A stretch of 64,000 nt of DNA from positions 10,666,175 through 10,730,174 of the forward strand of contig NC_049982.1 of the NCBI RefSeq assembly GCF_000003815.2. The letters run 5' to 3'. The first letter of the stretch is position 1. Each line of letters begins with the position of its first letter. Position numbers and translations under genes: made by a program. Below the pieces are notes generated by a model. It saw only the letters and a program-made list of their open reading frames with translations, was not told the origin of the DNA and made no database searches. Of this stretch, positions 15,401 through 64,000 are shown piece after piece. The stretch comes from Branchiostoma floridae (taxonomy: Eukaryota; Chordata; Leptocardii; Amphioxiformes; Branchiostomatidae).

Positions 15401-16760
15401 TTATCACTTGCAAGACATTTTAGAGGTTAGAGCCAGAACCAGCTTGATTGTTGTGTTTTTGTCGTGTCAACTGCCCATTGCTCTGCCAAGTATCTATTTC
15501 GGTAACAGTCCTAATGGTGGTGCTATTCGGGCCCGGATTAGGTTNNNNNNNNNNNNNNNNNNNNNNNNNNNNNNNNNNNNNNNNNNNNNNNNNNNNNNNN
15601 NNNNNNNNNNNNNNNNNNNNNNNNNNNNNNNNNNNNNNNNNNNNGACCATGTCCTACAGGATATGCTGTAATTTAAGCACGGGTATTCTCTACTATAGTC
15701 TTTGCCTTCTAGGAATACAACTTGTGTGACCGCATAGAATATGTCCTTCAAGCGACACCTTATGTCTACAATTAGACACTATGAAAATCGCGAAGTGTAT
15801 TGACACAAAAGGGTAACAAAAACTTGTCCTCGATTATGGTAAAGTTGGTATTCCGCAAATCCTAAAGACCAGCTAATTTACAGGGTGGGAGGGAACTGTG
15901 GAATGTTGGAGAGACCGAGCAACGTAAGAGGTGTAACAAGTGACCTCTATATAATGACAGTCAGCGGACTATGCGCCAGAGGGTTTTTGTGTTGAATGTT
16001 TGATGTCAGACAACATTTTACACTCGGGAGGGTAATTCTGGCTTCAGCTTTGATGTGCCTCTCTCTGTGTATTGCAAGGTGTGTTCAAACTATGCATTGA
16101 ATTCTTATCACGAAAAAAAACCTCTGTCACGACTACATGTCCGCCATGGTCATGGACGCGGTCTAAAACTGTGTCGCAATTCGGACAGGTCGACGCGAGT
16201 GCTGACAAAAGATAATATCACAGTGCCGGTTACTTGTACGTTTAACGTTGTATTGTATTGAATTGAGTCAAATTGACTGGTAGTGAATCTTACTTTGTCG
16301 CAGTACAATGTCTCACCTGATGGTCTCGTGTGAGCTTGACTCTCTGGTGAGCGGACACACACTCGGCGCACAGGAACTCCTCGCAGTGGAGACATCGGGC
16401 CGTGGCCTTCTGTCCGCCGTCGCACACGTTACACACCACGTCAGATTTTATCAGCCTCTTCTGGATCTCCACGCTGTTGGCGAGCGACACGATGAAGTGG
16501 TTATCCTTCAGCCACTGCAGGTGGTTCTCTCCGTCAGGAACGGGCACAACCGTCGTACAGATCGGGCACTTCAGACTTGCCGGCACCTCCTCGTACTCTT
16601 CTCCATGGCTGGGGGACTCGTCTAAGTGTTTCACTAGGCAGTTTTCACAGAATGAGTGAAGGCAAGGCAATAGCTTGGGCCTGTTAAAGTCCTTCTTACA
16701 GATCCCGCATTGCAAAAGGTCGTCTGATAGAGTCTGCGTCAACTGAGCGACAGAAGCCAT
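6275..16760 (-). CDS. TRIM-type RING / B-box / coiled-coil protein with Cys-rich C-terminus
   Basis: Predicted E3 ubiquitin ligase of 598 aa in six exons, listed in transcript order: 16317-16760, 9454-9678, 8801-8986, 8416-8651, 7785-8296, 6275-6468 (stop TGA 6275-6277). All junctions are GT-AG and the phases close. The RING spans residues 18-68 (C18, C21, C33, H35, C38, C41, C65, C68). B-box 1 spans about 110-147 (C110, C113, C123, C126, C131, C134, H138). B-box 2 starts at C171/H174 and runs to about H202. A charged coiled-coil stretch covers about 210-360. A Ser/Thr/Pro-rich linker (about 370-530) follows, and the last 64 residues are rich in Cys and His (see separate entry). No SPRY or NHL domain follows. 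The start at 16760 is chosen because it directly precedes the RING; an upstream in-frame ATG at 16835 is possible. RING-TRIM proteins usually ubiquitinate cytosolic targets, often in immunity or development; the substrate here is unknown. Intron 1 holds a 100-N gap. Confidence 0.85.
13004..13095. repeat. Fold-back element (nested inverted repeats)
   Basis: Outer arms AGATTTTGGGT (13004-13014) and ACCCAAAATCT (13085-13095) are perfect complements. Inner arms TGGCTTATCCC (13040-13050) and GGGATAAGCCA (13071-13081) are also perfect. The sequence would fold into one long interrupted hairpin, typical of a miniature inverted-repeat transposable element. Confidence 0.75.
15545..15644. other. Assembly gap (100 N)
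   Basis: A run of exactly 100 N, a size often used for gaps of unknown length. It lies inside intron 1 of the TRIM gene, so it should not remove coding sequence from the model. Confidence 0.99.
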
Positions 16761-16947
16761 GTCGAGCGCCCGTCTACCCGTCCGTGCCACTCGCCAAGAA
16801 CTACACGGAGCGAGAGCAATTTTCGGGTCCGGCAATTATTCGGGCCCAACCAGCTCTATTGTTCTGTGTCGGTACGAAGCCGGGCGGTTCGGTCAGGTGG
16901 GATAGGCCATACCTTCCCAGCATGGGATGGGTCCCAGCCTCCGAAGA

Positions 16948-16955: not shown

Positions 16956-16993
16956 CAGCGGCCTCGAACTTGCTGCCGTATATGGTAATTATC

Positions 16994-17253
16994 NNNNNNN
17001 NNNNNNNNNNNNNNNNNNNNNNNNNNNNNNNNNNNNNNNNNNNNNNNNNNNNNNNNNNNNNNNNNNNNNNNNNNNNNNNNNNNNNNNNNNNNNNNNNNNN
17101 NNNNNNNNNNNNNNNNNNNNNNNNNNNNNNNNNNNNNNNNNNNNNNNNNNNNNNNNNNNNNNNNNNNNNNNNNNNNNNNNNNNNNNNNNNNNNNNNNNNN
17201 NNNNNNNNNNNNNNNNNNNNNNNNNNNNNNNNNNNNNNNNNNNNNNNNNNNNN
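16994..17253. other. Assembly gap (260 N)
   Basis: A run of 260 N directly upstream of the presumed TRIM promoter. Any 5' UTR exon or promoter element there is missing. Confidence 0.99.
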
Positions 17254-19201
17254 ACCGATAGTCACAGCACAACAATGCTGTATATGTATATACCGATGCA
17301 TACATTTAAGAATGCCCGGAGATCAAAAATCGATTATAATCACGCCATTTTTCTTCAGTCAAAACACTGAATAAAAACGCATATCATATATACACCAGTA
17401 AATCCTGTGGGCCATTAAGAAATATTGACAACCGAGAAACACAGACAGTACTATCCTGTGTGTTTTCACCTGGGTGATTTTCCCCTTCATCGCCCCTAAA
17501 TAATAACAGGTATGCACATCGCCTACTTACAGGCGCGCGAACAGGTGGTCTGAGGTGTGTAATCTTTCACGCATATAAGGTTATTTTTGTTGACTTTATT
17601 ATCTGATCGTTGTTGTTTCCTTCAGATATACGATCACATTTGATTAGAAAAAATCTTTCGAAAAGCAACCCATACTTCATTAGAAGATACAGTGCTGCTG
17701 TACTTTAACGCATAGACTTGGACCTCCTATTTTAGGCACTTGAAATATACAAAAAGTTTGCCATTTTTAGTTTACCGGGGCTCCCATACTCAAATATCAC
17801 ATCTTATGACAAACAATAAAAGGCTCATTTCACATCTGTACATGTCTCGTGATATATCTGGTAACAAACAACAATGACATGCAGAGGAATGAAAATTGTA
17901 GAATAAAGACGAAGTTAAACTCTCCTAAAATGATAGTAAAACCACAGTCCTTTAATACATATTCATAGAGATAATATCCAAATATTGGACAGCATTTTAT
18001 TTGCTACAATATACATGGCATTATTCCTTATATCAGAGGGTATAATCTGCAAAGAGATTCACAATACATAGATGTAGCTTCCATGTCTTTTGGGTGTATA
18101 AAAATATGTATAACTGTATACTAAACTTTTCATGCTTTTCTATATCAATTTCAAAGGTATTCATATGATACATAATGCTGATACAAAACACTTAGCTCAC
18201 TCCTGTTACCTGTATATGGATAGTATATTCAACATGCTATTATGTTCAAATGCAGACTTCATTTTTTCATTGAGTACTTACTTAACTTGCTTTATGTGTG
18301 AAGTATAATATATATCAATTTTCAAGTATAGTTAAGACAATTTTGTGAATCAAGGATGTGAAAGTGATATTGGTGAAAAACTATAGCATGGACATTGTGC
18401 TAATTTTACAAACATACCATGATCGTTACAACTTTTGCATCTTGTCCTGAACTGGAAAGGTATATGCAGCCCTTTCCCTAGTATAAATTTTGAACACAAT
18501 ACTCATCAACTTCTACAGCTATTTTGACCTCCTACTATTGTATGCACAGCTGAGAAGCAGTAATTTTTGTAACTTATGCTTTGTGTTACACATAAAAATA
18601 AAGAACAATAAAGAAATGAGCAATGCCTTGAGTACATAAGTCTTTTTTCCATTTCCTATGTGTGCAAAAATAGTTCTAGTCATTTACACAAACACAATCA
18701 GAGAAATTTCTACAGCCAGTTATAAGACTTTTGCTACAAGTTTAGAGACAACTTTGTCATTGATGACTTGTCTTTCCTACTACAACTCCATAAAATCCCC
18801 CATACATTCCCTTCACCTCATAAGTCAAACAAAAACTATCATTTCCGAATCTGTTTTCTCAGAAAACTAAATAAAGGAGTCAGAATTCAGGGGGCCTTCC
18901 TGTGAACAATATTGTTCACAGTATGTCAAACTATTAAGCCATATCACATGGAAAAAATATAATTCCCTTTTATGATATCCCAAACTCTACAAATACCACT
19001 CTCAAAATTTACTTTGCACAATATAAATGCACATTCTCTGTAACAATGGGTCTAACCAACATTTACATAAAAATTGTGACTATTGAAATGTACTTTATTA
19101 AGTCATATTGAAACATTCCAAGTGGTCTCGACCTGATATAGTCATTTGTTCCCAAAGGCCTGAAACTTGTGATTGGTCAATAGTAAGTCACATGACCTAC
19201 A
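17254..19201. other. AT-rich gene-free stretch, probable TM7SF3 3' UTR and spacer
   Basis: No supported exon. On the minus strand this lies directly downstream of the TM7SF3 stop codon. An AATAAA on that strand (plus-strand TTTATT near 19093) is a candidate poly(A) signal. The remainder is AT-rich spacer between two minus-strand genes. Confidence 0.5.
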
Positions 19202-23782: not shown

Positions 23783-24955
23783 CTGAAATAAAAGATGAAC
23801 ATGTAGAAAGAGGTTATCTGATAAGATGTGCTGTAACTGAGCATATATACATGTACTGTATATTGTGTGCAACAATGAGGGTCTACATGGGGGTACTGGC
23901 ATTGCTTCATAGTAATCATAATATGAATAAATGTATAGGAAATGCTCAACAGAAAAAGGATATGCATTCTTACATGTATATGCACTACGCTAGATTGCAT
24001 ATTTCAATTGGTAAACCTACGCTGCAAACATGGATACAACCTGATGCTTTGTCATGGCTTTTTGGCGTTCAAGTACACAATAGGACAGATTTGTCAATAA
24101 CCATAATGATAAATGGTTTCTGAACAACAAGTAATGTGCTACCGGTGTGAAGAATCAAAGCTAAAAATACTTGTAAACAAATACTAGTAATCACTTTAAC
24201 TTAAAGTTTAAGTTGCCTTAGACTAGGCCTCCATGATTAATGTTTGCTTCTCCTTACAGAATGAGCAAGGACGTTATATCACTATATAACGTCCTTGGAA
24301 TGAGGCATGGAGACTATAAATAATATAATATTTGCTCCTCATAACTTTAATATGTATGTTCAAAGTTGATGAAAGCTACTTGATGAAAGCTTTGTTCAAA
24401 GACATTTCATAAGACTAGATAAGCTATGGGAGAGCGAAAAGTACAAACAGCAAGAGTGAAGATTAGGAGCTTACAGGCAATGGATCTGCCTTCATCCCGA
24501 GGATGGTATCAAAGGTATGTTCAACAATGAACAAAGGAGGTTAAAAAACCTTTTTTTAGCCTCCTTGGTTCAACTATCATAAATCTTTCTACTTAATTAC
24601 ACCCTCTGTACATATATCAACCACAGAATTCTAAAACTGAAAACACATGAACAGGATAAGCGAATAGATTAGGGATCATGTTAAGATGTCAACAGTGATG
24701 TGTGCAAAATTATCATATCAGAGGAGATAATAAAACAAATTAATCATGTTTTGGTTTTGTTTGTACATCACATTAAGATCGAAGACTTAGCAGCACCAAA
24801 GAAATGTACAGTTAACAAAGCATACCGGTTCGATTTCGTGCATCTAGAGTCATCAGAGTTGAAAATAAAACAGCCGCAAGACACCACCAACTCATCTTGT
24901 GAGGATAACCTGCCAAAACGAAGACTTTAAAGGATCTGAAATCTTCCAAAGTTGG
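23783..24955. other. TM7SF3 5' intron / spacer before the satellite
   Basis: No supported exon. It carries two short palindromes. One is CAAGGACGTTATAT with its complement across a 4-bp loop at about 24266-24297, with weaker outer pairing CTCCATG/CATGGAG. The other is an AGGAGG/CCTCCT inverted repeat at 24530-24570. The TM7SF3 signal-peptide exon would be expected upstream of 23782 on the minus strand; I did not recognise it here. Confidence 0.5.
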
Positions 24956-25441
24956 TTCAAGGTCTCAGAACACAGTATTTATACGCGACCCCCGTCCCCA
25001 AAAGTAGTTCGGGTTAAAATAGTGCACCGCAGTACTTGCAAAGGCCGTAGTTATTCTTCCGTGTACAACAGCGAGGTGGAAACTGTGGTGAATGGTAGAG
25101 GAATATATCGTTGTTGATACGGTATAAGTTGGATTACGTTGCTCCTTCGGCCAGCGGGAATTTGCGCCTTGATACTGTTACCGGCACTTCCTGTTCGTCG
25201 CCTGCAGTTCCATGACCTCCGCTGGGGGTCAAATCAAAGTGTCTTTTATAGAAAAACGAGCAGGCAAATCTATGCTCATTTTCAGATATGTTGTAGGTCG
25301 TACCCTCGACTTCAACATACTAAATTCTTGTAAATTGTATCTGCACCTTTCTATAGGTTTTGAGTCGTCGAACCACCTCACTTTGGGGTCCTTAACCATG
25401 TAAATCCCCATAGGCGAAAAACTGTGTTCTGAGACCTTGAA
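24956..25441. mobile_element. 486-bp TIR element within the satellite (first copy)
   Basis: Bounded by perfect 21-bp inverted repeats beginning TTCAAGGTCTCAGAACACAG (24956-24976 and 25421-25441). The same element occurs at 25938-26423, 26922-27407, 27905-28390, 29388-29873 and 30370-30855. It has no transposase and is small, so it would be a non-autonomous DNA transposon. One spacer copy at 28887 lacks it precisely, leaving GGTTGAATC, which supports it being a discrete insertion or excision unit. A target-site duplication is not clear. Confidence 0.7.
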
Positions 25442-25552
25442 TCACAGCGTTAATTCCCCAGGGACGGGTAATAACATTGAATTCGACTGATATGTTAGGA
25501 ATTGACCTCGGCTGACTTGAACTGTAACGTTTTTGTTACCGTCAGAACCGCC

Positions 25553-25566
25553 GTTACCATGGCAAC
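25553..25566. promoter_or_regulatory. RFX-type X-box in each satellite spacer (first copy)
   Basis: GTTACCATGGCAAC, embedded in CCGTTACCATGGCAACGG, fits the RFX family X-box (two GTTRCC half-sites in inverted order with a 2-bp spacer). It recurs at 26535, 27519, 28502, 29003, 29985 and 30967, always intact. RFX binding is inferred from the motif. Confidence 0.55.
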
Positions 25567-28500
25567 GGCCGCCAAGACCGCTCCCTATGCTTAAGTATAG
25601 GACTTAGTGCGGTCTAAAGCCCGCTCGACCCCCCCCCCCTTTTCCGCCCTAAAAAAGACTAACCCCCAATCCAAATCACTCAGAACGGTAGAATGTGGTC
25701 TGGCAAGCATCTTGTAGAAGAAAAAGTCAACCAGAATATTAAATTTGTTGAGATAATGAGACCAATTAGCGGCCCCTCAGATAGTCCTTGTACAGGGCCG
25801 ACACCTGTGCTAGGCGCCGAAGTGCAAAGTTGGCCATATCTCAGGAACCATTTGGATTTCTGTTCTAAAACTTGGTACGGTTTTATATCTTGACTAGTTT
25901 TATTGTATGAATAAAAAGAAATCCAAGGTCAAGTTGGTTCAAGGTCTCAGAACACAGTATTTATACGCGACCCCCGTCCCCAAAAGTAGTTCGGGTTAAA
26001 ATAGTGCACCGCAGTACTTGCAAAGGCCGTAGTTATTCTTCCGTGTACAACAGCGAGGTGGAAACTGTGGTGAATGGTAGAGGAATATATCGTTGTTGAT
26101 ACGGTATAAGTTGGATTACGTTGCTCCTTCGGCCAGCGGGAATTTGCGCCTTGATACTGTTACCGGCACTTCCTGTTCGTCGCCTGCAGTTCCATGACCT
26201 CCGCTGGGGGTCAAATCAAAGTGTCTTTTATAGAAAAACGAGCAGGCAAATCTATGCTCATTTTCAGATATGTTGTAGGTCGTACCCTCGACTTCAACAT
26301 ACTAAATTCTTGTAAATTGTATCTGCACCTTTCTATAGGTTTTGAGTCGTCGAACCACCTCACTTTGGGGTCCTTAACCATGTAAATCCCCATAGGCGAA
26401 AAACTGTGTTCTGAGACCTTGAATCACAGCGTTAATTCCCCAGGGACGGGTAATAACATTGAATTCGACTGATATGTTAGGAATTGACCTCGGCTGACTT
26501 GAACTGTAACGTTTTTGTTACCGTCAGAACCGCCGTTACCATGGCAACGGCCGCCAAGACCGCTCCCTATGCTTAAGTATAGGACTTAGTGCGGTCTAAA
26601 GCCCGCTCGACCCCCCCCCCCCCTTTTCCGCCCTAAAAAAGACTAACCCCCAATCCAAATCACTCAGAACGGTAGAATGTGGTCTGGCAAGCATCTTGTA
26701 GAAGAAAAAGTCAACCAGAATATTAAATTTGTTGAGATAATGAGACCAATTAGCGGCCCCTCAGATAGTCCTTGTACAGGGCCGACACCTGTGCTAGGCG
26801 CCGAAGTGCAAAGTTGGCCATATCTCAGGAACCATTTGGATTTCTGTTCTAAAACTTGGTACGGTTTTATATCTTGACTAGTTTTATTGTATGAATAAAA
26901 AGAAATCCAAGGTCAAGTTGGTTCAAGGTCTCAGAACACAGTATTTATACGCGACCCCCGTCCCCAAAAGTAGTTCGGGTTAAAATAGTGCACCGCAGTA
27001 CTTGCAAAGGCCGTAGTTATTCTTCCGTGTACAACAGCGAGGTGGAAACTGTGGTGAATGGTAGAGGAATATATCGTTGTTGATACGGTATAAGTTGGAT
27101 TACGTTGCTCCTTCGGCCAGCGGGAATTTGCGCCTTGATACTGTTACCGGCACTTCCTGTTCGTCGCCTGCAGTTCCATGACCTCCGCTGGGGGTCAAAT
27201 CAAAGTGTCTTTTATAGAAAAACGAGCAGGCAAATCTATGCTCATTTTCAGATATGTTGTAGGTCGTACCCTCGACTTCAACATACTAAATTCTTGTAAA
27301 TTGTATCTGCACCTTTCTATAGGTTTTGAGTCGTCGAACCACCTCACTTTGGGGTCCTTAACCATGTAAATCCCCATAGGCGAAAAACTGTGTTCTGAGA
27401 CCTTGAATCACAGCGTTAATTCCCCAGGGACGGGTAATAACATTGAATTCGACTGATATGTTAGGAATTGACCTCGGCTGACTTGAACTGTAACGTTTTT
27501 GTTACCGTCAGAACCGCCGTTACCATGGCAACGGCCGCCAAGACCGCTCCCTATGCTTAAGTATAGGACTTAGTGCGGTCTAAAGCCCGCTCGACCCCCC
27601 CCCCCCTTTTCCGCCCTAAAAAAGACTAACCCCCAATCCAAATCACTCAGAACGGTAGAATGTGGTCTGGCAAGCATCTTGTAGAAAAAAAAGTCAACCA
27701 GAATATTAAATTTGTTGAGATAATGAGACCAATTAGCGGCCCCTCAGATAGTCCTTGTACAGGGCCGACACCTGTGCTAGGCGCCGAAGTGCAAAGTTGG
27801 CCATATCTCAGGAACCATTTGGATTTCTGTTCTAAAACTTGGTACGGTTTTATATCTTGACTAGTTTTATTGTATGAATAAAAAGAAATCCAAGGTCAAG
27901 TTGGTTCAAGGTCTCAGAACACAGTATTTATACGCGACCCCCGTCCCCAAAAGTAGTTCGGGTTAAAATAGTGCACCGCAGTACTTGCAAAGGCCGTAGT
28001 TATTCTTCCGTGTACAACAGCGAGGTGGAAACTGTGGTGAATGGTAGAGGAATATATCGTTGTTGATACGGTATAAGTTGGATTACGTTGCTCCTTCGGC
28101 CAGCGGGAATTTGCGCCTTGATACTGTTACCGGCACTTCCTGTTCGTCGCCTGCAGTTCCATGACCTCCGCTGGGGGTCAAATCAAAGTGTCTTTTATAG
28201 AAAAACGAGCAGGCAAATCTATGCTCATTTTCAGATATGTTGTAGGTCGTACCCTCGACTTCAACATACTAAATTCTTGTAAATTGTATCTGCACCTTTC
28301 TATAGGTTTTGAGTCGTCGAACCACCTCACTTTGGGGTCCTTAACCATGTAAATCCCCATAGGCGAAAAACTGTGTTCTGAGACCTTGAATCACAGCGTT
28401 AATTCCCCAGGGACGGGTAATAACATTGAATTCGACTGATATGTTAGGAATTGACCTCGGCTGACTTGAACTGTAACGTTTTTGTTACCGTCAGAACCGC

Positions 28501-31044
28501 CGTTACCATGGCAACGGCCGCCAAGACCGCTCCCTATGCTTAAGTATAGGACTTAGTGCGGTCTAAAGCCCGCTCGACCCCCCCCCCCTTTTCCGCCCTA
28601 AAAAAGACTAACCCCCAATCCAAATCACTCAGAACGGTAGAATGTGGTCTGGCAAGCATCTTGTAGAAGAAAAAGTCAACCAGAATATTAAATTTGTTGA
28701 GATAATGAGACCAATTAGCGGCCCCTCAGATAGTCCTTGTACAGGGCCGACACCTGTGCTAGGCGCCGAAGTGCAAAGTTGGCCATATCTCAGGAACCAT
28801 TTGGATTTCTGTTCTAAAACTTGGTACGGTTTTATATCTTGACTAGTTTTATTGTATGAATAAAAAGAAATCCAAGGTCAAGTTGGTTGAATCACAGCGT
28901 TAATTCCCCAGGGACGGGTAATAACATTGAATTCGACTGATATGTTAGGAATTGACCTCGGCTGACTTGAACTGTAACGTTTTTGTTACCGTCAGAACCG
29001 CCGTTACCATGGCAACGGCCGCCAAGACCGCTCCCTATGCTTAAGTATAGGACTTAGTGCGGTCTAAAGCCCGCTCGACCCCCCCCCCCTTTTCCGCCCT
29101 AAAAAAGACTAACCCCCAATCCAAATCACTCAGAACGGTAGAATGTGGTCTGGCAAGCATCTTGTAGAAGAAAAAGTCAACCAGAATATTAAATTTGTTG
29201 AGATAATGAGACCAATTAGCGGCCCCTCAGATAGTCCTTGTACAGGGCCGACACCTGTGCTAGGCGCCGAAGTGCAAAGTTGGCCATATCTCAGGAACCA
29301 TTTGGATTTCTGTTCTAAAACTTGGTACGGTTTTATATCTTGACTAGTTTTATTGTATGAATAAAAAGAAATCCAAGGTCAAGTTGGTTCAAGGTCTCAG
29401 AACACAGTATTTATACGCGACCCCCGTCCCCAAAAGTAGTTCGGGTTAAAATAGTGCACCGCAGTACTTGCAAAGGCCGTAGTTATTCTTCCGTGTACAA
29501 CAGCGAGGTGGAAACTGTGGTGAATGGTAGAGGAATATATCGTTGTTGATACGGTATAAGTTGGATTACGTTGCTCCTTCGGCCAGCGGGAATTTGCGCC
29601 TTGATACTGTTACCGGCACTTCCTGTTCGTCGCCTGCAGTTCCATGACCTCCGCTGGGGGTCAAATCAAAGTGTCTTTTATAGAAAAACGAGCAGGCAAA
29701 TCTATGCTCATTTTCAGATATGTTGTAGGTCGTACCCTCGACTTCAACATACTAAATTCTTGTAAATTGTATCTGCACCTTTCTATAGGTTTTGAGTCGT
29801 CGAACCACCTCACTTTGGGGTCCTTAACCATGTAAATCCCCATAGGCGAAAAACTGTGTTCTGAGACCTTGAATCACAGCGTTAATTCCCCAGGGACGGG
29901 TAATAACATTGAATTCGACTGATATGTTAGGAATTGACCTCGGCTGACTTGAACTGTAACGTTTTTGTTACCGTCAGAACCGCTGTTACCATGGCAACGG
30001 CCGCCAAGAAGCTCCCTATGCTTAAGTATAGGACTTAGTGCGGTCTAAAGCCCGCTCGACCCCCCCCCCCCTTTTCCGCCCTAAAAAAGACTAACCCCCA
30101 ATCCAAATCACTCAGAACGGTAGAATGTGGTCTGGCAAGCATCTTGTAGAAGAAAAAGTCAACCAGAATATTAAATTTGTTGAGATAATGAGACCAATTA
30201 GCGGCCCCTCAGATAGTCCTTGTACAGGGCCGACACCTGTGCTAGGCGCCGAAGTGCAAAGTTGGCCATATCTCAGGAACCATTTGGATTTCTGTTCTAA
30301 AACTTGGTACGGTTTTATATCTTGACTAGTTTTATTGTATGAATAAAAAGAAATCCAAGGTCAAGTTGGTTCAAGGTCTCAGAACACAGTATTTATACGC
30401 GACCCCCGTCCCCAAAAGTAGTTCGGGTTAAAATAGTGCACCGCAGTACTTGCAAAGGCCGTAGTTATTCTTCCGTGTACAACAGCGAGGTGGAAACTGT
30501 GGTGAATGGTAGAGGAATATATCGTTGTTGATACGGTATAAGTTGGATTACGTTGCTCCTTCGGCCAGCGGGAATTTGCGCCTTGATACTGTTACCGGCA
30601 CTTCCTGTTCGTCGCCTGCAGTTCCATGACCTCCGCTGGGGGTCAAATCAAAGTGTCTTTTATAGAAAAACGAGCAGGCAAATCTATGCTCATTTTCAGA
30701 TATGTTGTAGGTCGTACCCTCGACTTCAACATACTAAATTCTTGTAAATTGTATCTGCACCTTTCTATAGGTTTTGAGTCGTCGAACCACCTCACTTTGG
30801 GGTCCTTAACCATGTAAATCCCCATAGGCGAAAAACTGTGTTCTGAGACCTTGAATCACAGCGTTAATTCCCCAGGGACGGGTAATAACATTGAATTCGA
30901 CTGATATGTTAGGAATTGACCTCGGCTGACTTGAACTGTAACGTTTTTGTTACCGTCAGAACCGCCGTTACCATGGCAACGGCCGCCAAGACCGCTCCCT
31001 ATGCTTAAGTATAGGACTTAGTGCGGTCTAAAGCCCGCTCGACC

Positions 31045-31656
31045 CTTCGAAGAATAAACTTGCTCTGCAACCAGACCAACTTTATCAATGGTAACGTTAA
31101 GCAGGCAAACGCACTTTCAGCCGAAGTGAAATCCATTTAAAATGCATAACAGCTTGAAACAATAAAACAATCTTTCATTTCTTTTTTAATTTTTCATACA
31201 TACTACTATGGCATAGTTATCATTTTGAAATACTGTTCTGTTTCATACATACGGATAACAATAATATCTGCTTTGCCTCGCTATGATGCGCTCTAAATTG
31301 GGGATCGATCAAAAATAACATATAATAGTGGAACAGTCAAAACTGTCCATGAAATAGTTTTGCTTTATAAGAAAAAATATATATAATGTTGTAACATTAG
31401 ATATTTTCTTATCATTTAATATGAAAGTTTAGATAGATGGACATTTGTAAAAGGAAATTCACATTTCGCCCCCATCCTTTAGATTGTTTCTGGTTGAACC
31501 CCAAACAGGAAGTCCTTGGATCACCAGAAGATTGTTGAGATACCGTGGCGGGCAGATTGGTCTGTGTGGAGGCGTGTGTGTGGAACCGGCATACCTGTCG
31601 TTTTACGGTATTTACGTGACATGTAGGGTTAGAAACGGCAACGAAACTTAGCTGCC
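31045..31656. other. Spacer and probable promoter upstream of TMEM117
   Basis: About 600 bp between the satellite end and the TMEM117 start codon. The first 400 bp are AT-rich without exons; the last 150 bp rise in GC and lead into a CpG-rich first exon. I saw no TATA box close to the start. A divergent TM7SF3 first exon could lie here, but no minus-strand signal peptide is evident. Confidence 0.4.
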
Positions 31657-34600
31657 ATGGCGTCGGGACCGGGGAAAACGCCGCAAGATGTGGACATGAG
31701 GCACTACACGCCGCCGAACACCCCGCTGAAGTCTCCCGGGGAAGGGGAGGGAGGCGGGGCGGGGGGACAGGACGGCGGGGAGGCCGCCGTGTCCTCTGCG
31801 GTAGACGAGGGGGGAGGGGCCGAGACGGACGGAAAGGATCCCGATCGTGATCCCAAGACACCGACAACGCCCCAAGAGCATGGAGATCAAGCCGAAGATG
31901 CCAAAGACGAACCAGATGCCGTAAGTACTGACATATCTTTCAATGTATAGAAAGGTTATACGATGGTATCTGTTACCAAGTCGTTACGGTCTACATATTA
32001 CCGCAAATTATCTAGAGCATTTCCTCAACGATTCACGTGTTCCGCCAAGCTGAAATCCCCCTTTCAGATCACAACAAAACCGTAACATCGGGAAGATTCC
32101 GTGGACCACATTTCTGCGGTTTATTTTTCTTCCCGTTGAATCGATCCGTTTGTACTCCATTCTTTCCATATCATGTATTTGACGTCACGGAATGTTTTGA
32201 TGGTGGCAGCCCGGTGATGGCCATGGCGTTACACAAGGGGACAGGGGCTTGGACGAAAACAAGATTTCTTAACAATCAACAGCATTTAACTTACTATGAA
32301 TATGAAAAGTGTATTTCACTTCCAGCTTTTGTTATTCATATAACGTTATATTTATGAATTTGTATTGACAGTTTCAGCTTTGCCACTGTAAACCATCTTT
32401 TATAATTTGCAAGAAAATTGCTCTTTACTGAGGCGTCAAGGGAGTGATCTGTCAATTCTCAAAAATAGTGGGCTGGCCTGTCTCATTGTAAGAACTAACA
32501 CATAAATCCCACTGTGAAATAATCTAATTATGACAAGTTAAGTGTCAGTAGTTATCAGTCTAAGGTTTTTCCAGTTTCTAAAGCACCATTGTGGAATCTT
32601 TTCACACAATTTGGAGATTTCATGCCACAATGGTGATACCCGGGCAGTTTCTCATCTCCGCTGTCAACCGCAGGTGGAAGAAATGATTAGATATTGGTTT
32701 GTAGGCGGCGGGCTAGTGTCGTTCTGACGTTAAAGTGACGTCCCTCGGCTCTGTTGCCAGGCAACACCGAGCTAACGTCAAGGTGCGGCACATAACCCAC
32801 GTCTGATTATTCTGTGGTAGTGCTCCAGGATATGTCTGACTGCCCAGAAATGATGATTACCAGTGCAGACTATCCACCTATAGAATAAAGATAATGATTT
32901 TACCCATGTACAGAGAGGAAACTTTATCCCTAGAATAAAATCTATATCATTGTGACAAATGAAAGTAGATTGGAATCACTGTCTACAGCATCTTTTGCTT
33001 TGGGACCAGTCATTCATTGATGTAATGTTACTTTTAACTTACACCATGTGATACCATTAAATGAGCAAGTAATAAATCCAGATCGATTCCTAGATGTCCA
33101 GCATCTGTACCTACCATAAAGCATTATGATATGAACAAAGACTACAAAGTAAGAAGTGACATTCAAGCAACAGTTCAAGGTTATGAGTAACTTTTGTCAT
33201 TCTCGATGTTAGACCAAGTTGGCTAGTACTGGCAACGTTCCAGTGACAATTTTTGGAGGCTGGATGGCTGTAGAAGTACTTTCTGGAGCGTCTAATTGGT
33301 ATACGTAGTGACTAAGTAACATACCATGTGATTGTACTTTTTGTGGGTCATATGACTGAGCATGTGCTAGCATGCATGTTTATCGCACTCACATGGCGAT
33401 ACTTGTCCAATATAGAAAAAATAAGTACTACATAGAAAGAACAGAAGTACTACATATAATATTCAAATCTACTGTCTGGAAACTGCCGTGCAAGGCCATC
33501 AAATGAAATAAGAAAATTATGCATTTTTTACCTTTGTTTTAGTTTGAAATGTCACAAGTCAATGACCTACAGTAACAGATTGCTTTAAAAATTCAAAAGA
33601 GATAAGATTTACCAAGCAAATCTAATTAAGTGACTCCAAACTTGTGCATGCAAGCTTAGTTCAAAAGTATGCATTTGGAAATTGAAGTCGACAGAAAATT
33701 GAATTAGGTAATTGTCCTGGTACTGTGCAGGCATGCAAACGTACCAGCCACCAGATGTTACCTTACTGTGGTTGGAAAATACTGTATCATTGCTATGAAG
33801 GTCAAGCCATCATCTGCTACATTTCTAATTACAACATGTCTAAGGCTGACATTTTTAGCCAAGTACACCTGGTCATCCCTGCTCTTCTGGATATGTGTGT
33901 TGGGTTGGACACCTGGGGCTTCCCAAGAGACTAGAGCAACCCCTCACAAACATCAAACCTTCATTCTTTGAACAGCTGGTTGCTTACCACTTGTGCTACA
34001 GGGACTCAGATTCAGAAATAACAGTCGAGAGAGGTATGAAAACTGCTGTGTGGCATTTAGACTTATGAACTCAGAGCTTGGCACATTGTCAGTGCCACCA
34101 TACTTTCTTTCCGTCTCTTTTAGAACAGACATAAGAAAAAGGATCTTGTGGCTGATCCAGTGCTATGTGCTAATTAACCTGCAAAATAGTTATCTACATT
34201 TTAAAATATGTAGGCTGAAATCTCATCTACGTACACACTCACTCAGTTGTAAGATGTACCAGGTGGAATCATTATGACTTCGGGGCTTTGAGGTAATACA
34301 CGATACATGTATCATCTTGGCATATCTATACATATACGTGTGGTACGTGCCTCAGATATCCCATGGGAATACAATGATTACAGTGAACTTCGTGATTGAT
34401 AACAATGCTCAGACATGTTGGCAGATGTTTCAGGTATCATTAAATGTTATTGCCAAGGCAATCCAAGGTCTTCCATGTCATCTTTTTTGTTTGTTCTGCA
34501 TGTAATGAACAAGATGAACACTTTAAATGTATTTTCCATATTTTAAAGAATGTCTGACAGTCTGACATCTCTTTTTGGACTGTTATTCCAAGTGTTAATT

Positions 34601-43600: not shown

Positions 43601-44780
43601 TATTTGAATATCCTTGAAGTCATGTTGTAGTTCAGTAAAGTACACGGATGAGGGGGTCACAGAAAACAGTGGTACATGTATGGTAGTTATGAAACACTTG
43701 TATGATTGTGCTCTTCCCTACAGGACTGGGACTTCCCACACTTCATGGGTAGTCTGGACATCAAACTGCCCGGTATCAACACTACCCATATCAGGCTGCA
43801 CATCCCCAAGTGTCTGCGGAAAGACGAGTGGACGATACACGTCACAGGTTAGGCCCCCATCTCACTTGTTGGTGATTAATTGGATTTGTGTCCCTCTATG
43901 TTCCAATTCATAATTTTGATGTTTAATATGCAAAATGTAAAAGTATGACTGAAAAGACAGCAAAGCAAATATAAGTGTATTGTAAAAAAGTTTTTTTTTT
44001 TTTAAATCTTTCACATTTTGAATAACAGTGGGGTTGCTGCCCTATCAGGAGTGTAAGGAAGCAATACAAAAGTATTGTTGCAAAGTTGATTTTTTTGTCC
44101 CTTTACACTGTATGAGACTGTTTTCTCACTTTGAACGATTGATTTCAGGGAAGTGGTTCAACTATGGAATCATCATGTTGGTGATCATCCTGGACCTGAA
44201 CATGTGGAAGAACCAGATCTTCTACAAGCCGTTTGACTACGGGCAGTATGTGGGGCCGGACGACAGCATCCACTTTGTCCGGGACATCGACACCCTTCAG
44301 GGCGACCTGTTCAACCGGACCACGCTCACGTACGACTGGCGTGCCAACCACACTGACCCAGCAACAAATCTGACATATTTGGAAAGGGACCTTCATATGC
44401 ATTCCAAATATATCGGATTCACGCTGGGTGTCAAAGGCATCGCTTTCGTCCCGGGCCTGATGGCCTTCGTCACGTTTGGTGTCCTCATCTGGTGGTACGG
44501 ACGCTTCAAGCCCAACGAGAAGGATCCCCACGCAGACCGCTACGTTAAGAGGAAGAGGTCAAAGAGACGGAGGTTGTGGCAGAAGAATGCCACTGAGCCG
44601 AAAACAACTCTTGTATCGCTGACAAACGTTCAGCCTCTGAATACTTTGCCGCCGCCGCCGGCATCGTACGACATCCCTGATACAGAACGGGAAAATGGGG
44701 GACCGGCTGTCCCGGCACAGAACGGAGCAGCACCCACTCCGGAGGGACCGGTCAAAGTTCAAGTGCTGTCAAATGTGTGA
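31657..44780 (+). CDS. TMEM117: Transmembrane protein 117 (TMEM117)
   Basis: Seven exons: 31657-31920, 40414-40586, 41870-42030, 42395-42627, 43024-43281, 43724-43847, 44149-44780 (stop at 44778-44780). Phases close to 614 aa. Exon 1 encodes a Gly/Glu/Pro-rich hydrophilic N-terminus after a good start context (GCCATGG). From exon 2 the protein follows human TMEM117 closely: KDFRYYFQHP, FAEDPVSH, ANVIVVGN, SFMKAAALGTWMGDFVTAWM, VTDMMLQD, ITTDYIDWDYLNRGFLP, SRAFLASFILV, then GKWFNYGII, LDLNMWKNQIFYKP and YGQYVGP. About eight membrane segments are visible. The C-terminal tail (about 100 residues) is basic then Pro-rich and differs from human. TMEM117 is a plasma/ER membrane protein with reported roles in ER-stress-linked cell death; its molecular activity is not settled. 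Intron 1 is 8.5 kb and repeat-rich. Confidence 0.95.
32725..32780. promoter_or_regulatory. Palindromic CRE / X-box cluster
   Basis: Within 56 bp there are TGACGTTA (32725), TGACGTCC (32736), the X-box GTTGCCAGGCAAC (32753-32765) and TAACGTCA (32773-32780). The outer TGACGTTA/TAACGTCA pair and an inner CTCGG/CCGAG pair make the module palindromic around the X-box. X-boxes bind RFX proteins and TGACGT sites bind CREB/ATF; the two co-occur in known RFX/CREB enhancers. It lies 0.8 kb into TMEM117 intron 1. Enhancer activity is inferred. Confidence 0.5.
36346..36440. repeat. Fragment of the TACTGTAAAT/TTCGCGGT dispersed repeat family
   Basis: TTCGCGGTAGTGAG, TTTTTGCGGTGGTTTTAAG and a CATAGACTGCTGTCT stretch match, in the opposite orientation, parts of the repeat at 61532-61729. 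It is an incomplete, diverged copy next to the larger transposon remnant. Confidence 0.55.
37384..37512 (+). repeat. 129-bp direct repeat, copy 1
   Basis: This 129-bp segment is repeated in the same orientation at 38675-38803 with one visible mismatch (A/C near 37443). Copy 1 is inside the transposon remnant; copy 2 is outside. High identity points to a recent duplication. Confidence 0.9.
38118..38275. repeat. AGAATTCT-rich palindromic tandem cluster
   Basis: About ten copies of AGAATTCT, often extended to CCAGAATTCTGG, occur in about 160 bp with irregular spacing. It interrupts the right arm of the surrounding transposon remnant. The half-sites resemble heat-shock elements but spacing is not the regular 2-bp alternation, so I do not call it one. 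Confidence 0.8.
38675..38803 (+). repeat. 129-bp direct repeat, copy 2
   Basis: Second copy of the segment at 37384-37512, 1.29 kb downstream, in the same orientation. The edges are sharp on both sides. Confidence 0.9.
39190..39196 (+). promoter_or_regulatory. TATA-like box before possible alternative TMEM117 exon
   Basis: TATATAT lies 73 bp upstream of the ATG at 39263. This spacing allows a transcription start near 39220 and a short 5' UTR. Support is positional only. Confidence 0.3.
39263..39313 (+). CDS. TMEM117: Possible alternative first coding exon of TMEM117
   Basis: ATG followed by 17 codons (MSSEDDSLPDIVPCPPQ) and a donor CAG|GTAAAA in phase 0. This is the same phase as the constitutive first exon, so it splices cleanly to 40414. 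The short acidic N-terminus would give a 543-aa protein, closer to the 514 aa of human TMEM117 than the 614-aa form. The sequence fits an exon, but a chance ORF of this size is possible. Confidence 0.4.
41469..41497. repeat. (CTA)n microsatellite
   Basis: A run of about eight CTA/ACT triplets in TMEM117 intron 2. It explains leucine-rich and serine-rich false open frames on the two strands. Confidence 0.9.
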
Positions 44781-46887: not shown

Positions 46888-51363
<4,476 letters not shown>

Positions 51364-51639: not shown

Positions 51640-53390
51640 TGGATGGATAGTGTTCAGCACAAAGGGTAGGGCAGATGGTCTTTGGATGGTAATCAGCACC
51701 AAGGACAGGTGCGCGTATGTGTGCGCGCGCGTGTGCACACGTGTATACTAGTGTATACAATGTTCAGCACCAAGGAGAGGGCTGTGTGGGGGTGGATAGT
51801 GTTCAGCACCAAGGAGAGGGCTGTGTAGTGGGGATGGATAGTGTTCAGCACCAAAGAGAGGGCTGTGTAGTGGGGGTGGATAGTGTTCAGCACCAAGGAG
51901 AGGGCTGTGTAGTGGGGGATGGAGTGTTCAGCACCAAGGAGAGGGCTGTGTAGGGGTGGATAGTGTTCAGCACCAAGGAGAGGGCTGTGTAGTGGGGGTG
52001 GATAGTGTTCAGCACCAAGGACAAGTCTATGTAGTGGGGGGTGGATAGTGTTCAGCACCAAGGAGAGGGCGGTGTAGTGGGGGATGGATAGTGTTCAGCA
52101 CCAATGACAGGTCTGTGTAGGGGTGGATAGTGTTCAGCACCAAGGAGAGGACTGTGTAGTGGGGGTGGATAGTGTTCAGCACCAAGGAGAGGGCGGTGTA
52201 GTGGGGGGTGGATAGTGTTCAGCACCAAGGACAGGTCTGTGTAGTGGGGGTTGAGGTGGGCAGTGTTCAACACCAAGGAGAGGGCTGTGTAGTGGGGGTG
52301 GATAGTGTTCAGCACCAAGGAGAGGGCGGTGTAGTGGGGGGTGGATAGTGTTCAGCACCAAGGACAGGTCTGTGTAGTGGGGGTTGAGGTGGGCAGTGTT
52401 CAACACCAAGGAGAGGGCTGTGTAGTGGGGGTGGATACTGTTCAGCCCCAAGGAGAGGGCTGTATAGTGGGGGATGGAGTGTTCAGCACCAAGGAGAGGG
52501 CTGTGTAGTGGGGGTTGGGGTGGGCAGTGTTCAACACCTAGGAGAGGGCTGTGTAATGGGGGTGGATAGTGTTCAGCCCCAAGGAGAGGGCTGTATAGTG
52601 GGGGATGGAGTGTTCAGCAGCCAAGGAGAGGGATGTGTAGTGGGGGTGGATAGTGTTCAGCTCCAAGGAGAGGGCTGTGTAGTGGGGGTGGATAGTGTTC
52701 AGCACCAAGGAGAGGGCTGTGTAGTGGGGGATGGAGTGTTCAGCACCAAGGAGAGGGCTGTGTAGTGGGGGATGGATAGTGTTCAGCACCACGGAGAGGG
52801 CTGTGTAGTGGGGGATGGATAGTGTTCAGCACCAAGGAGGGGACTGTGTAGTGGGGGATGGATAGTGTTCAGCACCACGGAGAGGGCTGTGTAGTGGGGG
52901 ATGGATAGTGTTCAGCACCAAGGACAGGGCTGTGTAGTGGGGGATGGATAGTGTTCAGCACCAAGGACAGGGCTGTGTAGTGGGGGATGGATAGTGTTCA
53001 GCACCACGGAGAGGGCTGTGTAGTGGGGGATGGATAGTGTTCAGCACCAAGGAGAGGGCTGTGTAGTGTTCAGCACCAAGGACAGGGCTGTGTAGTGGGG
53101 GATGGATAGTGTTCAGCACCAAGGACAGGTCTGTGTAGGGGTGGATAGTGTTCAGCACCAAGGACAGGGCTGTGTAGTGGGGGATGGATAGTGTTCAGCA
53201 CCAAGGTGAGGGCTGTGTAGTGGGGGGTGGATAGTGTTCAGCACCAAGGAGAGGGCTGTGTAGTGGGGGAAGGATAGTGTTCAGCACCGAGGACAGGTCT
53301 GTGTAGGAGAGGATAGTGTTAAGCACCAAGAACAGGTCTGTCTGTGCATGTCAGGTGTTCAGCACCAAGGACAGGTTGGTTGTAATTCCT
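51640..53390. repeat. G-rich minisatellite of ~40-43-bp units
   Basis: About 40 imperfect copies of GTTCAGCACCAAGGAGAGGG followed by CTGTGTAGTGGGGGTGGATA. The first units (51640-51760) are degenerate and include an alternating purine-pyrimidine stretch. Around 52130-52397 three-unit blocks of about 134 bp repeat almost exactly, a higher-order structure. When the unit is 42 bp it leaves 14-codon open frames on both strands, explaining several repetitive false proteins. It starts about 280 bp upstream of the AHCY start codon. Confidence 0.95.
51708..51757. other. Alternating purine-pyrimidine tract (Z-DNA type)
   Basis: TGCGCGTATGTGTGCGCGCG continues into GTGTGCACACGTGTATACTAGTGTATAC with near-perfect alternation. 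Such tracts favour Z-DNA; GCGCGC and TGTGCACACG are the strongest parts. It lies near the beginning of the minisatellite. Confidence 0.6.
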
Positions 53391-61300: not shown

Positions 61301-62147
61301 AGATAAACGTACCTTCTGGTACCAAAACATACTATACTGTTGTGCTTTATCCAGTAGAATTCCAAAAGGTTACGCATGGAGTTTCAAGATTTTTCCTTCA
61401 TAGGGATCTGACTTAAAGAAAGATGAGGAAACTGAATTATAGTTCCCCTAGCAAATCGTAAACATCTAAATGAAGACAACTTTTCTGCTTTGGTGGAGGA
61501 TTGTGTGCTCTCAAAATGCTTTCTGATTGAGTACTGTAAATGCAGAAATGTTCATGGTGGATTTATGTTCGCGGTTTTCGTGGTGACTATTTCACCGCGA
61601 ACTTAAAACCACCGCGAACATTTTTCTATTATGGTAGTAGACTGCAGTCTATGGTGTTACCGCGAACTTAAAACCACCACGAAAAGTCCCTTTTCCGCTA
61701 CCACGAAATTAAACACATTTTCAGTATATGGATGGGCCCAAACAGTGGCAGAGCTGAGGTGTTTGGAAATATGATGATTTTATCATCTGTGTAGCCTGGG
61801 TGCTACCCTATTTAGTAGCAGGGCTCCCTCAAAATGTTCTCATGGAATGAGTATGGGAGCCCTTGCACCCAGGCCATCATCTGTGCTGACAACAATGAGA
61901 AGTACACCCAACCTCCATGCCTGAAGCACAGCATGGGAAACCTCCACAGCTGTCCAAGCCCAGCCGCCCAGCCGATGGAGGTGAGGATCATCTCGCACTG
62001 GCACGTCCAGTTCCCGCGCTCCTTGTTCTCCTCCCCGCAGCCACAGCAGGTCGCCGACGGCTCCTCTATCGGCTCGTCCATAATGAAGATCGGCCGCGTG
62101 GATTCCGTGATGTCGGAGGAGTCTGGATTCTCCTCGGCAGGTTCCAT
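55348..62147 (-). CDS. SLC6-family neurotransmitter/amino-acid symporter-like protein
   Basis: Fourteen exons in transcript order: 61913-62147 (exon extends to 62177), 61036-61167, 60632-60787, 60283-60409, 59927-60059, 59482-59610, 58993-59105, 58502-58626, 57977-58089, 57603-57764, 57039-57141, 56584-56708, 55750-55908, 55348-55503. Phases close to 655 aa, typical for SLC6. Hallmarks: ERGNW then TM1 GLGQLWRFP (residues 63-71), TM2 [13 protein letters not shown], the large loop 2 with CDNYWNT, two Cys and N-glycosylation sites (NMT, NYT), TM6 [20 protein letters not shown]8 [16 protein letters not shown], and WGPYLQQHH in the tail. A glycine (G63) replaces the amine-binding Asp of monoamine transporters, as in amino-acid carriers. 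Several ion-site residues differ from the consensus (see findings). The acceptor upstream of the ATG implies a 5' UTR exon beyond 62177. I cannot assign an orthologue or substrate. Confidence 0.9.
57431..57573. mobile_element. 143-bp inverted-repeat element in an SLC6 intron
   Basis: Ends AAGCTAAGGGCACAACCC (57431 on) and GGGTTGTGCCCTTAGCTT (to 57573) are perfect complements, and pairing continues with CCGCACGTAC/GTACGGCGG at one or two mismatches. No coding capacity. It fits a miniature inverted-repeat transposable element. Confidence 0.8.
61532..61729. repeat. TACTGTAAAT/TTCGCGGT dispersed repeat, full-type copy
   Basis: Starts TACTGTAAATGCAGAAATG and contains GTTCGCGGTTTTCGTGGTG with inverted partners CACCGCGAACTTAAAACCAC and CCGCGAAC. 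Related pieces are at 36346-36440 and 63207-63450. It lies in the first SLC6 intron of the coding region. Confidence 0.7.
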
Positions 62148-62177
62148 CTTACCGTTGTGCACTGCAGCATCCGATGC

Positions 62178-64000
62178 CTGGAGGGGACAGAAGCCATGTG
62201 AAGGGTGAGGAGTCACAGAAATCTTTTATAAGCCATAGGAGTCTGATATCATCAAATAAACAAGGACTTTGCAAAAACATCAGTCACAGAGATACAACTA
62301 TAAAGCAAAATTCTGCTAGTATCAGTAACTGCCAAAGAAGGCTTCAGCGCGGAAGGGTTGCAGACTGCCCAATTTACACATGAAATGGTCCCCTTGGCTA
62401 TCTTTGCTTGCCAAGCTGATTGACATTTGGGTCATGTTATCTGCATTGATAGGCACAGTAGGAAGCTTTGGATAGAAAACTATACCAGCGGCAGACTCCT
62501 GCATAAAGCTGATAAGATTTGCATAAATAGGACATGCCAATGAAACAAAGGAGAAAAAAAGCACACCAAAGCTTAGGTTGTAATACTACCAATCTCTCCT
62601 GTGCTATAAAAAGTAAATTTTAATTGGCTATGTTAAAATAACAGGAATGATCATGATGATGAATAATGTATACTAACAGGCATATCTGCATATGCATTGG
62701 TCAACTGGTATGGAAAGATACCCCTTTGCTGCAGGTGGCTGAATGAATGCAATAAGTTATAATGCAGAATATGTTATAATGGAAAGCAATATGAACAAAA
62801 TTCAAAGTACATTACTATCCATCTCCACTGGTATCTAAATATGTGTTGCTCCTTATACTTATACGAGTTATATGAGTTATACGAGTGCCTATTTGTTTGC
62901 TTTGTACAACTTTGAAAAGGACAATAAAACCCCTGAAAGGAGAAACTGCTCTAGCATGTGTGTAATTTGTTCATGATAAATTGACCATGAAATCCATGGT
63001 GATTTGCTGGTTATTCCCTCTTGTTCAGGGCCAGCACAGCCTGACCACATAACAGTGACAGGTATGGTGTTTGTCAACAGTACAGTACTTAACCCCTGGC
63101 TTCTTGTTACTATCACTGCTGCATCCTACAACTGTCAACTTGCTTTTGTCAAAACTTTCAAACTACCGGTACATGTGCCAGAATTTTCTGCCTTAGGAAG
63201 TACCGGTACTGTAAATTCATCTACATTTTCGCAGTGGTTTTACTTCCTAGTGTTTTAAACTTGACTGAATGAGACTAAAAGTAAAACAATTCCATAGTAC
63301 AGTAGTGATAAAAGGTCAACTTGCATGGTAAAAAGGAAGACACATGTGTACATATTGGCAGTATCATGAATTAACGGTGTAGATCAGGTCCGACTACAAA
63401 ACTGTTGAAGTAAAACCGCTACGAAATTTCTACAGAAAAGATTTACAGTAAATGACAGCACAATGTAGTTTATGAAGTTCTGACTGTTTGTCATCTTTTT
63501 CGCACCAAATCATGACATACCAAACTCATGTTTCCTTAATGTTCTTATCATTATCCCTGTGTTCAAATGTTAGCCATCTCACAATAGCCATTATTCCCTT
63601 AAGCAATTACTGGACAGTCCCTACAAGTATTGAAATTGGAATCACTTGTATCCTGCTGCCATAGGTCACTTGGGGTCACTGCTGGACAGATAGGATTCTC
63701 AAAAGTCCCTTTGTCAATGAGACAGTCATGGGAGATGTGTACCCATTTATAGGTATCCTATGTTCCTGGTATCTGGGTCTTCTTTGCCTAAATCTACTTT
63801 ATCTGTAACCTAAAAGTTTGAACACAACTCACAAAATAGCTTAGGCAGGTACTAATTATGCAAAAGCCACTAATAATTCGGTGTGGGTAACTACTAACTA
63901 CGTGTACTGTAACGATACATGTCAAAACCAATATTTTTTCAATAATGTGCATGTTGTGGGAGCTGGAGAAACTATGACTTTGCCCTCCTACATTTACCTG
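62178..64000. other. Upstream region of the SLC6 gene
   Basis: Because the first coding exon begins at a splice acceptor (62177), this should be a 5' intron and possibly a 5' UTR exon. I could not identify a coding exon. It holds the repeat at 63207-63450. Confidence 0.45.
63207..63450. mobile_element. 244-bp inverted-repeat element of the TACTGTAAAT family
   Basis: Left end TACTGTAAATTCATCTACAT and right end (complement) TACTGTAAATCTTTTCTGTA are inverted, followed on both sides by TTCGCAGTGGTTTTACTTC-like sequence. The central 150 bp are unrelated. It is a diverged member of the family seen at 61532. Confidence 0.65.

Follow-up and report, generated by a model that had tools for sequence, protein, structure and literature searches.

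The window, a stretch of 64,000 nucleotides from Branchiostoma floridae (NC_049982.1), contains a tandem array in which a short element with inverted ends (E) alternates with a spacer (S). We conclude, with a probability of roughly 0.85, that this apparent satellite is a multimer of a nonautonomous composite DNA transposon resembling KolobokP, and that in this family whole arrays jump while single E hop out. KolobokP transposons have the composite structure LTDR-INT-LTDR and occur in three Branchiostoma species including Branchiostoma floridae, according to the available portions of Kojima & Bao 2022 (PMC9587614). The conclusion is carried by the dispersal of the same units through the genome, by equal flanks around many of the arrays, and by varied spacer-spacer joins that look like traces of lost E copies.

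The window array holds six copies of E, all identical and 476 bp long, which alternate with S of 506-508 bp. A terminal inverted repeat (TIR) of 16 bp, GGTCTCAGAACACAGT, is present at both ends of E. The element itself begins with GGTC and ends with GACC, boundaries that were set from dispersed copies whose outer ends have equal flanks and GG...CC as terminal dinucleotides. A preliminary description had rightly recognised six element-carrying units with inverted ends, but its element of 486 bp and its perfect inverted ends of 21 bp counted five flanking bases per side (TTCAA-E-TTGAA) as part of the element. The length of S between E copies varies with a C-run of 11-13. At 28886/28887 two spacers join without an E, which confirms the element-less spacer copy placed at 28887 in the same description. 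The sequence of this join (AAGTTGGTTGAATCACAG, start 28880) has a single occurrence on the + strand of the window, and the S-S segment of 1007 bp falls 5 bp short of two spacers of 506 bp. The array has no stop-to-stop frame reaching 120 aa in E or S, and one E-S unit (searched over 25900-27000) matched no Rfam family at expect values up to 1, which lends no support to an RNA origin of E or S. Tandem Repeats Finder with a longest period of 500 did not report the array.

The genome was searched over 513.4 Mb in 431 contigs, the window corresponding to C4:10666175-10730174. A 1-kb E-S query gave at least 181 matches (845 candidates, 40 of them scored). When up to one mismatch was allowed, the 16-bp TIR had 548 occurrences, compared with 8 for a reversed control, which is an abundance far beyond chance. 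The element is thus found outside the array, and an objection from its absence elsewhere falls away. The loci fetched (L numbers) comprised 20 arrays, 20 loci around further TIR matches, and 20 very short stretches covering 19 array ends and one S-S join; the array loci were drawn from the best matches of the E-S query, not randomly. E and S occurred together at 20/20 fetched array loci and in the window. The dispersed forms are solo E, which is common among the TIR matches, E-S-E, and longer E/S arrays. Two subtypes were distinguished: subtype A, as in the window, and subtype B, with E ~93% and S mostly ~92% identical to the window sequences. Several A arrays end prematurely or run into N.

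Equal 4-bp outer flanks were found for 15 of the 22 arrays with both ends readable (14/21 without L018, which entered the count by hand from its flank). The target-site duplications that the preliminary description anticipated around solo copies were also present, with equal 4-bp flanks at 11 of 15 solo E. The flank count omits loci with one or no readable end, namely L013-L017, L019, L042, L044, L047, L048, the window, one of the two L043 pieces, and four of the arrays fetched by their ends (C14:7567 with its degraded right end, C6:27438, C13:13550 and C6:26635). The motif WYRW fits 25 of the 26 equal flanks as compared with 8.5% of the 4-mers in the window; TTAA is the commonest equal flank (8/26), and the other 18 are not TTAA. 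L021, with the structure E-S-E-S-E-S-E-S-S-E-S-E-S-E and TTGT on both sides, is among the longest of the equal-flanked units. Equal outer flanks indicate either that whole arrays inserted as transposons or that arrays grew inside older solo insertions.

The second possibility corresponds to model b1 of Kojima & Bao, proposed in the available portions of PMC9587614, in which E-S circles produced by E-E recombination enter a resident solo E by homology, leaving outer duplications that are older than the array. This model is compatible with the equal outer flanks. It also predicts that the outer halves of the end E copies should look like random solo E, which differ by about 6% (full-length solo E are ~94% identical among themselves). 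The outer halves were in fact 98.9-99.8% like the subtype consensus. Only at the A left end was identity to the consensus more than 0.3% lower than in the internal copies (0.989 vs 0.994), a small difference in the direction expected for growth in place, and for B the left end and the internal copies both scored 0.992; the end halves were otherwise not clearly more diverged. Growth in place also does not predict the donor-like outer flanks described below, and we consider it improbable.

Within arrays E was 99.8% (A) and 99.9% (B) identical, and between arrays of the same subtype 98.5% (A) and 99.0% (B). One solo E, L038, was exactly identical to array E. Such levels are consistent with E repeats having exchanged with or converted one another, combined with recent movement. 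The subtype A spacer behaved similarly, with 99.5% identity within and 97.9% between arrays.

The S-S joins provide a further line of evidence. Inside arrays E is flanked as GGTTCAA-E-TTGAATC in the main form of A and as GGCTTAA-E-TTCATCC in B, and the 13 S-S joins in mapped loci, window included, are mostly end-joins of two such flanks. The join GGTTGAATC is found in L018 and the window, and in L013 with a base change of its own; GGTTCAATC occurs in L016 and twice in L019, GGCTTCATCC in L023 and L028, and GGCTTAATTCATCC in L026. The mapped joins that remain comprise two of intermediate form and a larger loss (L022), as well as one that keeps a TIR remnant (L021). Genome-wide, an exact-edge pattern retrieved 15 joins with lengths of 30 (n=4), 31 (5), 33 (1), 35 (4) and 26 (1), of which 8 were read by letters and the others by length. 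The flank loss was 2-5 bp in 10 of the 15, being 5 bp in the 30-long, 4 bp in the 31-long and 2 bp in the 33-long joins. Since the joins recur as differing but stereotyped combinations of E flanks, they point to excision of E, which the preliminary description had offered as one of two options; its precise element-less unit is probably one member of a class of excision footprints. L023 and L028, both of the form E-S-S-E, have the same join, yet their S copies differ by 0 substitutions within each locus and by 6 between the loci. This suggests independent events with the same product, although subsequent homogenisation inside each locus would give the same picture.

The other option was that an older S satellite captured E as a transposon and that the compound unit was amplified afterwards, which would make the short unit ancestral. 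The existence of S-S joins and of one run of four S (L022) would be in line with such a history. However, the joins differ among loci as combinations of two E flanks, 15 of 22 arrays have E at their ends between equal flanks, and no array without E was present among the 20 fetched loci, though these were picked by an E-S query and solo S was not surveyed. We therefore regard a satellite origin as very unlikely, and the description of the array as a plain satellite is not upheld, as the same units are dispersed in solo, E-S-E and longer forms. That the short unit is an assembly collapse is hardly credible, because the window spacers differ in C-run length and S-S joins recur on different contigs with different sequences.

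On the transposon interpretation, E would be a 476-bp LTDR with its own 16-bp inverted ends and S an INT that in this case lacks any long open frame. A transposase working in trans would pair any left TIR with any right TIR, mobilising whole E(SE)n blocks as well as single E and producing 4-bp duplications that fit W-Y-R-W. Excision of an internal E followed by end joining of the gap would give an S-S join. Tandem growth and the homogeneity of E would most likely result from direct E repeats exchanging unequally or converting one another.

Several observations weigh against this interpretation. The outer flanks are unequal in 7 of 22 arrays. In the window array neither outer edge is formed by E, and hence there is no duplication: the edges, 24949 and 31045, both fall in S, on the right side at the C-run. 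Likewise, several further A arrays start within S or E, and the fetched B arrays do not. Identity levels are not uniform either: the E pair of L029 shares only 96.4% identity, the spacers of L022 are 10-11 substitutions apart, and subtype B spacers resemble each other no more closely within loci (97.1%) than between them (97.4%). Homogenisation of the spacer is not general, and the strong homogenisation read earlier from near-identical copies is supported for E and not for the B spacer. For KolobokP, INT-INT joins from LTDR excision have lost 1-5 bp of flank on one side, almost always 3-4 bp, according to the available portions of PMC9587614, while 4 of the 15 exact-edge joins here are 35 long with zero flank loss (three known from their letters, one from its length; a single C12 array holds three of them), and the single 26-long join has lost 9 bp.

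The enzymatic partner is a further point on that side, since no transposase was linked to the E/S family. KolobokP has a Kolobok DDD/E transposase in an autonomous partner and an I-PpoI-like His-Me nuclease in INT, as described in the available portions of PMC9587614. In favour of KolobokP, PF05551, the I-PpoI-type nuclease family, had 32 matches in the genome vs 0/14 in control genomes, with none of the 32 placed beside the E/S family. In the listed C1-C6 range, 0 of 15 matches (of 16 on C1-C6) lay within 5 kb of an exact TIR, a weak test because TIRs with one mismatch were not listed. Two pairs of matches, C10:11452370 with 11456322 (3952 bp apart) and C2:16466279 with 16470431 (4152 bp apart), are possibly autonomous KolobokP tandems, which would give such spacing. 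A partner search for the TIR followed by G/C gave 0 genome matches, and inspection by eye only of the open reading frames in L042 and L043 revealed no evident autonomous copy.

The unequal outer flanks show a regularity of their own. Among the 11 unequal loci, 7 have TTCA as their right flank (five are B arrays and two solo E), as compared with none of the 26 equal loci (3e-5 in a post hoc Fisher test; the loci may share ancestry). TTCA is not a WYRW site and is the right flank of E inside B arrays. The A array L009 has flanks ACAA/TTGA, TTGA being the flank found inside A arrays. The left flank is TTAA in C6:26643 and in three of the TTCA arrays; this is the B internal left flank but also the commonest equal flank. 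L020 has flanks TTTT/TTCA, and the solo E L032 and L045 end in TTCA. At ~1592-1596 of L026 (C12:15164500-15170200) two E abut across a 4-bp TTCA, with the first base of the second TIR changed, an arrangement that resembles a putative joined-ends intermediate. Mobilised units might thus bring 4 bp of donor flank to the new site, so that the outer flanks would remember the donor. We put this forward tentatively, as a possibly new point that we rather doubt at present. It is weakened by the B joins: those that have lost flank lack mainly the left one, and the flank carried is in most cases the right, so that footprint and carried flank are not simple reciprocals. An exact genome-wide pattern for circle-like abutted E ends with a spacer of 0-10 found 0 cases.

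The same unequal TTCA flanks could result from gene conversion by internal E-TTCA-S units, which has a reasonable, if less than even, chance of being correct. E is strongly homogenised within arrays, and TTAA and TTCA are one base apart. On the other hand, L009 and L020 would need conversion into poorly matching sequence, and solo L032 and L045 are also TTCA-ended. If carried flanks are real, natural insertions would preserve a trace of an excised intermediate that had donor flanks, either as the 5' overhangs of piggyBac hairpin chemistry or as an IS3-like circle with a flank spacer, and would bear on the pathway left open by Kojima & Bao. 5' overhangs belong to piggyBac chemistry as presented in the available part of PMC7351741, and a circle intermediate was suggested by Kojima & Bao from footprints in the available portions of PMC9587614.

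With the composite-transposon interpretation, an apparent satellite becomes a good case of entire tandem arrays moving as transposons, and illustrates how tandem repeats can be generated and dispersed by a composite transposon of a eukaryote. How KolobokP excises and inserts becomes open to test on genome sequence through the diverse yet stereotyped joins and the flanks that resemble those of the donor.

Table 1. Components of the E/S array in window coordinates.
Feature	Coordinates	Strand	Remark
Left array edge, last 12 bp of spacer (AAGTTGGTTCAA)	24949..24960	+	same 12 bp close each of five spacer segments between E copies
E copy 1 (LTDR-like element), 476 bp, TIR GGTCTCAGAACACAGT	24961..25436	+	
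Spacer S 1 (INT-like), 506 bp	25437..25942	+	
E copy 2	25943..26418	+	
Spacer S 2, 508 bp	26419..26926	+	
E copy 3	26927..27402	+	
Spacer S 3, 507 bp	27403..27909	+	
E copy 4	27910..28385	+	
Spacer S 4a, abuts next spacer	28386..28886	+	
S-S join AAGTTGGTTGAATCACAG, putative excision footprint of one E	28880..28897	+	
Spacer S 4b	28887..29392	+	
E copy 5	29393..29868	+	
Spacer S 5, 506 bp	29869..30374	+	
E copy 6	30375..30850	+	
Truncated spacer broken at C-run, right array edge	30851..31045	+	matches S 1-190

About 600 bp beyond the right end of the array, an ATG at 31657 (read by eye) may be the start of a TMEM117 gene, the TMEM117 domain being found at 44022-44780. Elsewhere in the window, 51761-53376 is a minisatellite with a 43-bp unit in ~31 copies at 87% match, plus higher-order variants. 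Open frames on the minus strand encode RING/B-box (16290-16835), S-adenosylhomocysteine hydrolase (48222-48632) and neurotransmitter symporter (61812-62225) domains. At ~16990-17310 the translation contains X, indicating N or masked sequence.

Comparison with known mobile elements places the family closest to KolobokP. In the available portions of PMC9587614, KolobokP LTDRs are ~450 or ~660 bp long with their own TIRs of 11-18 bp and 5'-RR..YY-3' ends, and occur both as solo LTDRs and in (LTDR-INT)n-LTDR multimers, usually with short target-site duplications. E falls within this size class, its 16-bp TIRs and GG..CC ends conform, and monomers, solo E, multimers with equal flanks and S-S joins like the INT-INT joins are all represented. 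The family differs in that E-S-E is ~1.46 kb, compared with 1.7-3.3 kb for nonautonomous families in oyster, and in that its equal flanks fit WYRW. We have strong confidence that the E/S family works like KolobokP, and it likely is KolobokP. The array is ordinary in kind, being explained by a described class, and is a rich and well-preserved example. Kolobok superfamily transposons duplicate a 4-bp TTAA target, and KolobokP itself is described in PMC9587614 as being without strong target preference; the duplication here is 4 bp, and is TTAA at the frequency given above. It is possible that the family is already one of the 228 KolobokP families reported in PMC9587614.

Other classes fit less well. 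For piggyBac a strict TTAA duplication is expected, and it was dropped in view of the 18 other equal flanks. Ginger1, with CCGG/CCGT duplications and TGT ends in the available part of PMC2836005, was also dropped. Satellite DNA, with arrays not bounded by transposon ends, was set aside because of the 15 arrays with E ends and equal flanks, although the window array itself is not E-bounded. Bacterial composite transposons (insertion sequence-gene-insertion sequence) are similar in that mobile ends move the enclosed segment and single ends move alone; the family described here is eukaryotic, forms tandem multimers and has no frame of 120 aa or more in E or S. The Xenopus satellites miDNA4 and Xstir, derived from miniature inverted-repeat transposable elements (MITEs), likewise tie tandem repeats to a TIR element, but in the available part of PMC12628747 the repeat lies inside or derives from the MITE interior, whereas here the TIR element is the repeated end and the arrays lie between element ends. 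Tandems of TRIM long terminal repeat retrotransposons, as treated in the available portions of PMC9587614, also form direct-repeat arrays that share terminal repeats and leave solo terminal repeats; E is set apart from these by its 16-bp TIRs and by S-S joins resembling excision footprints.

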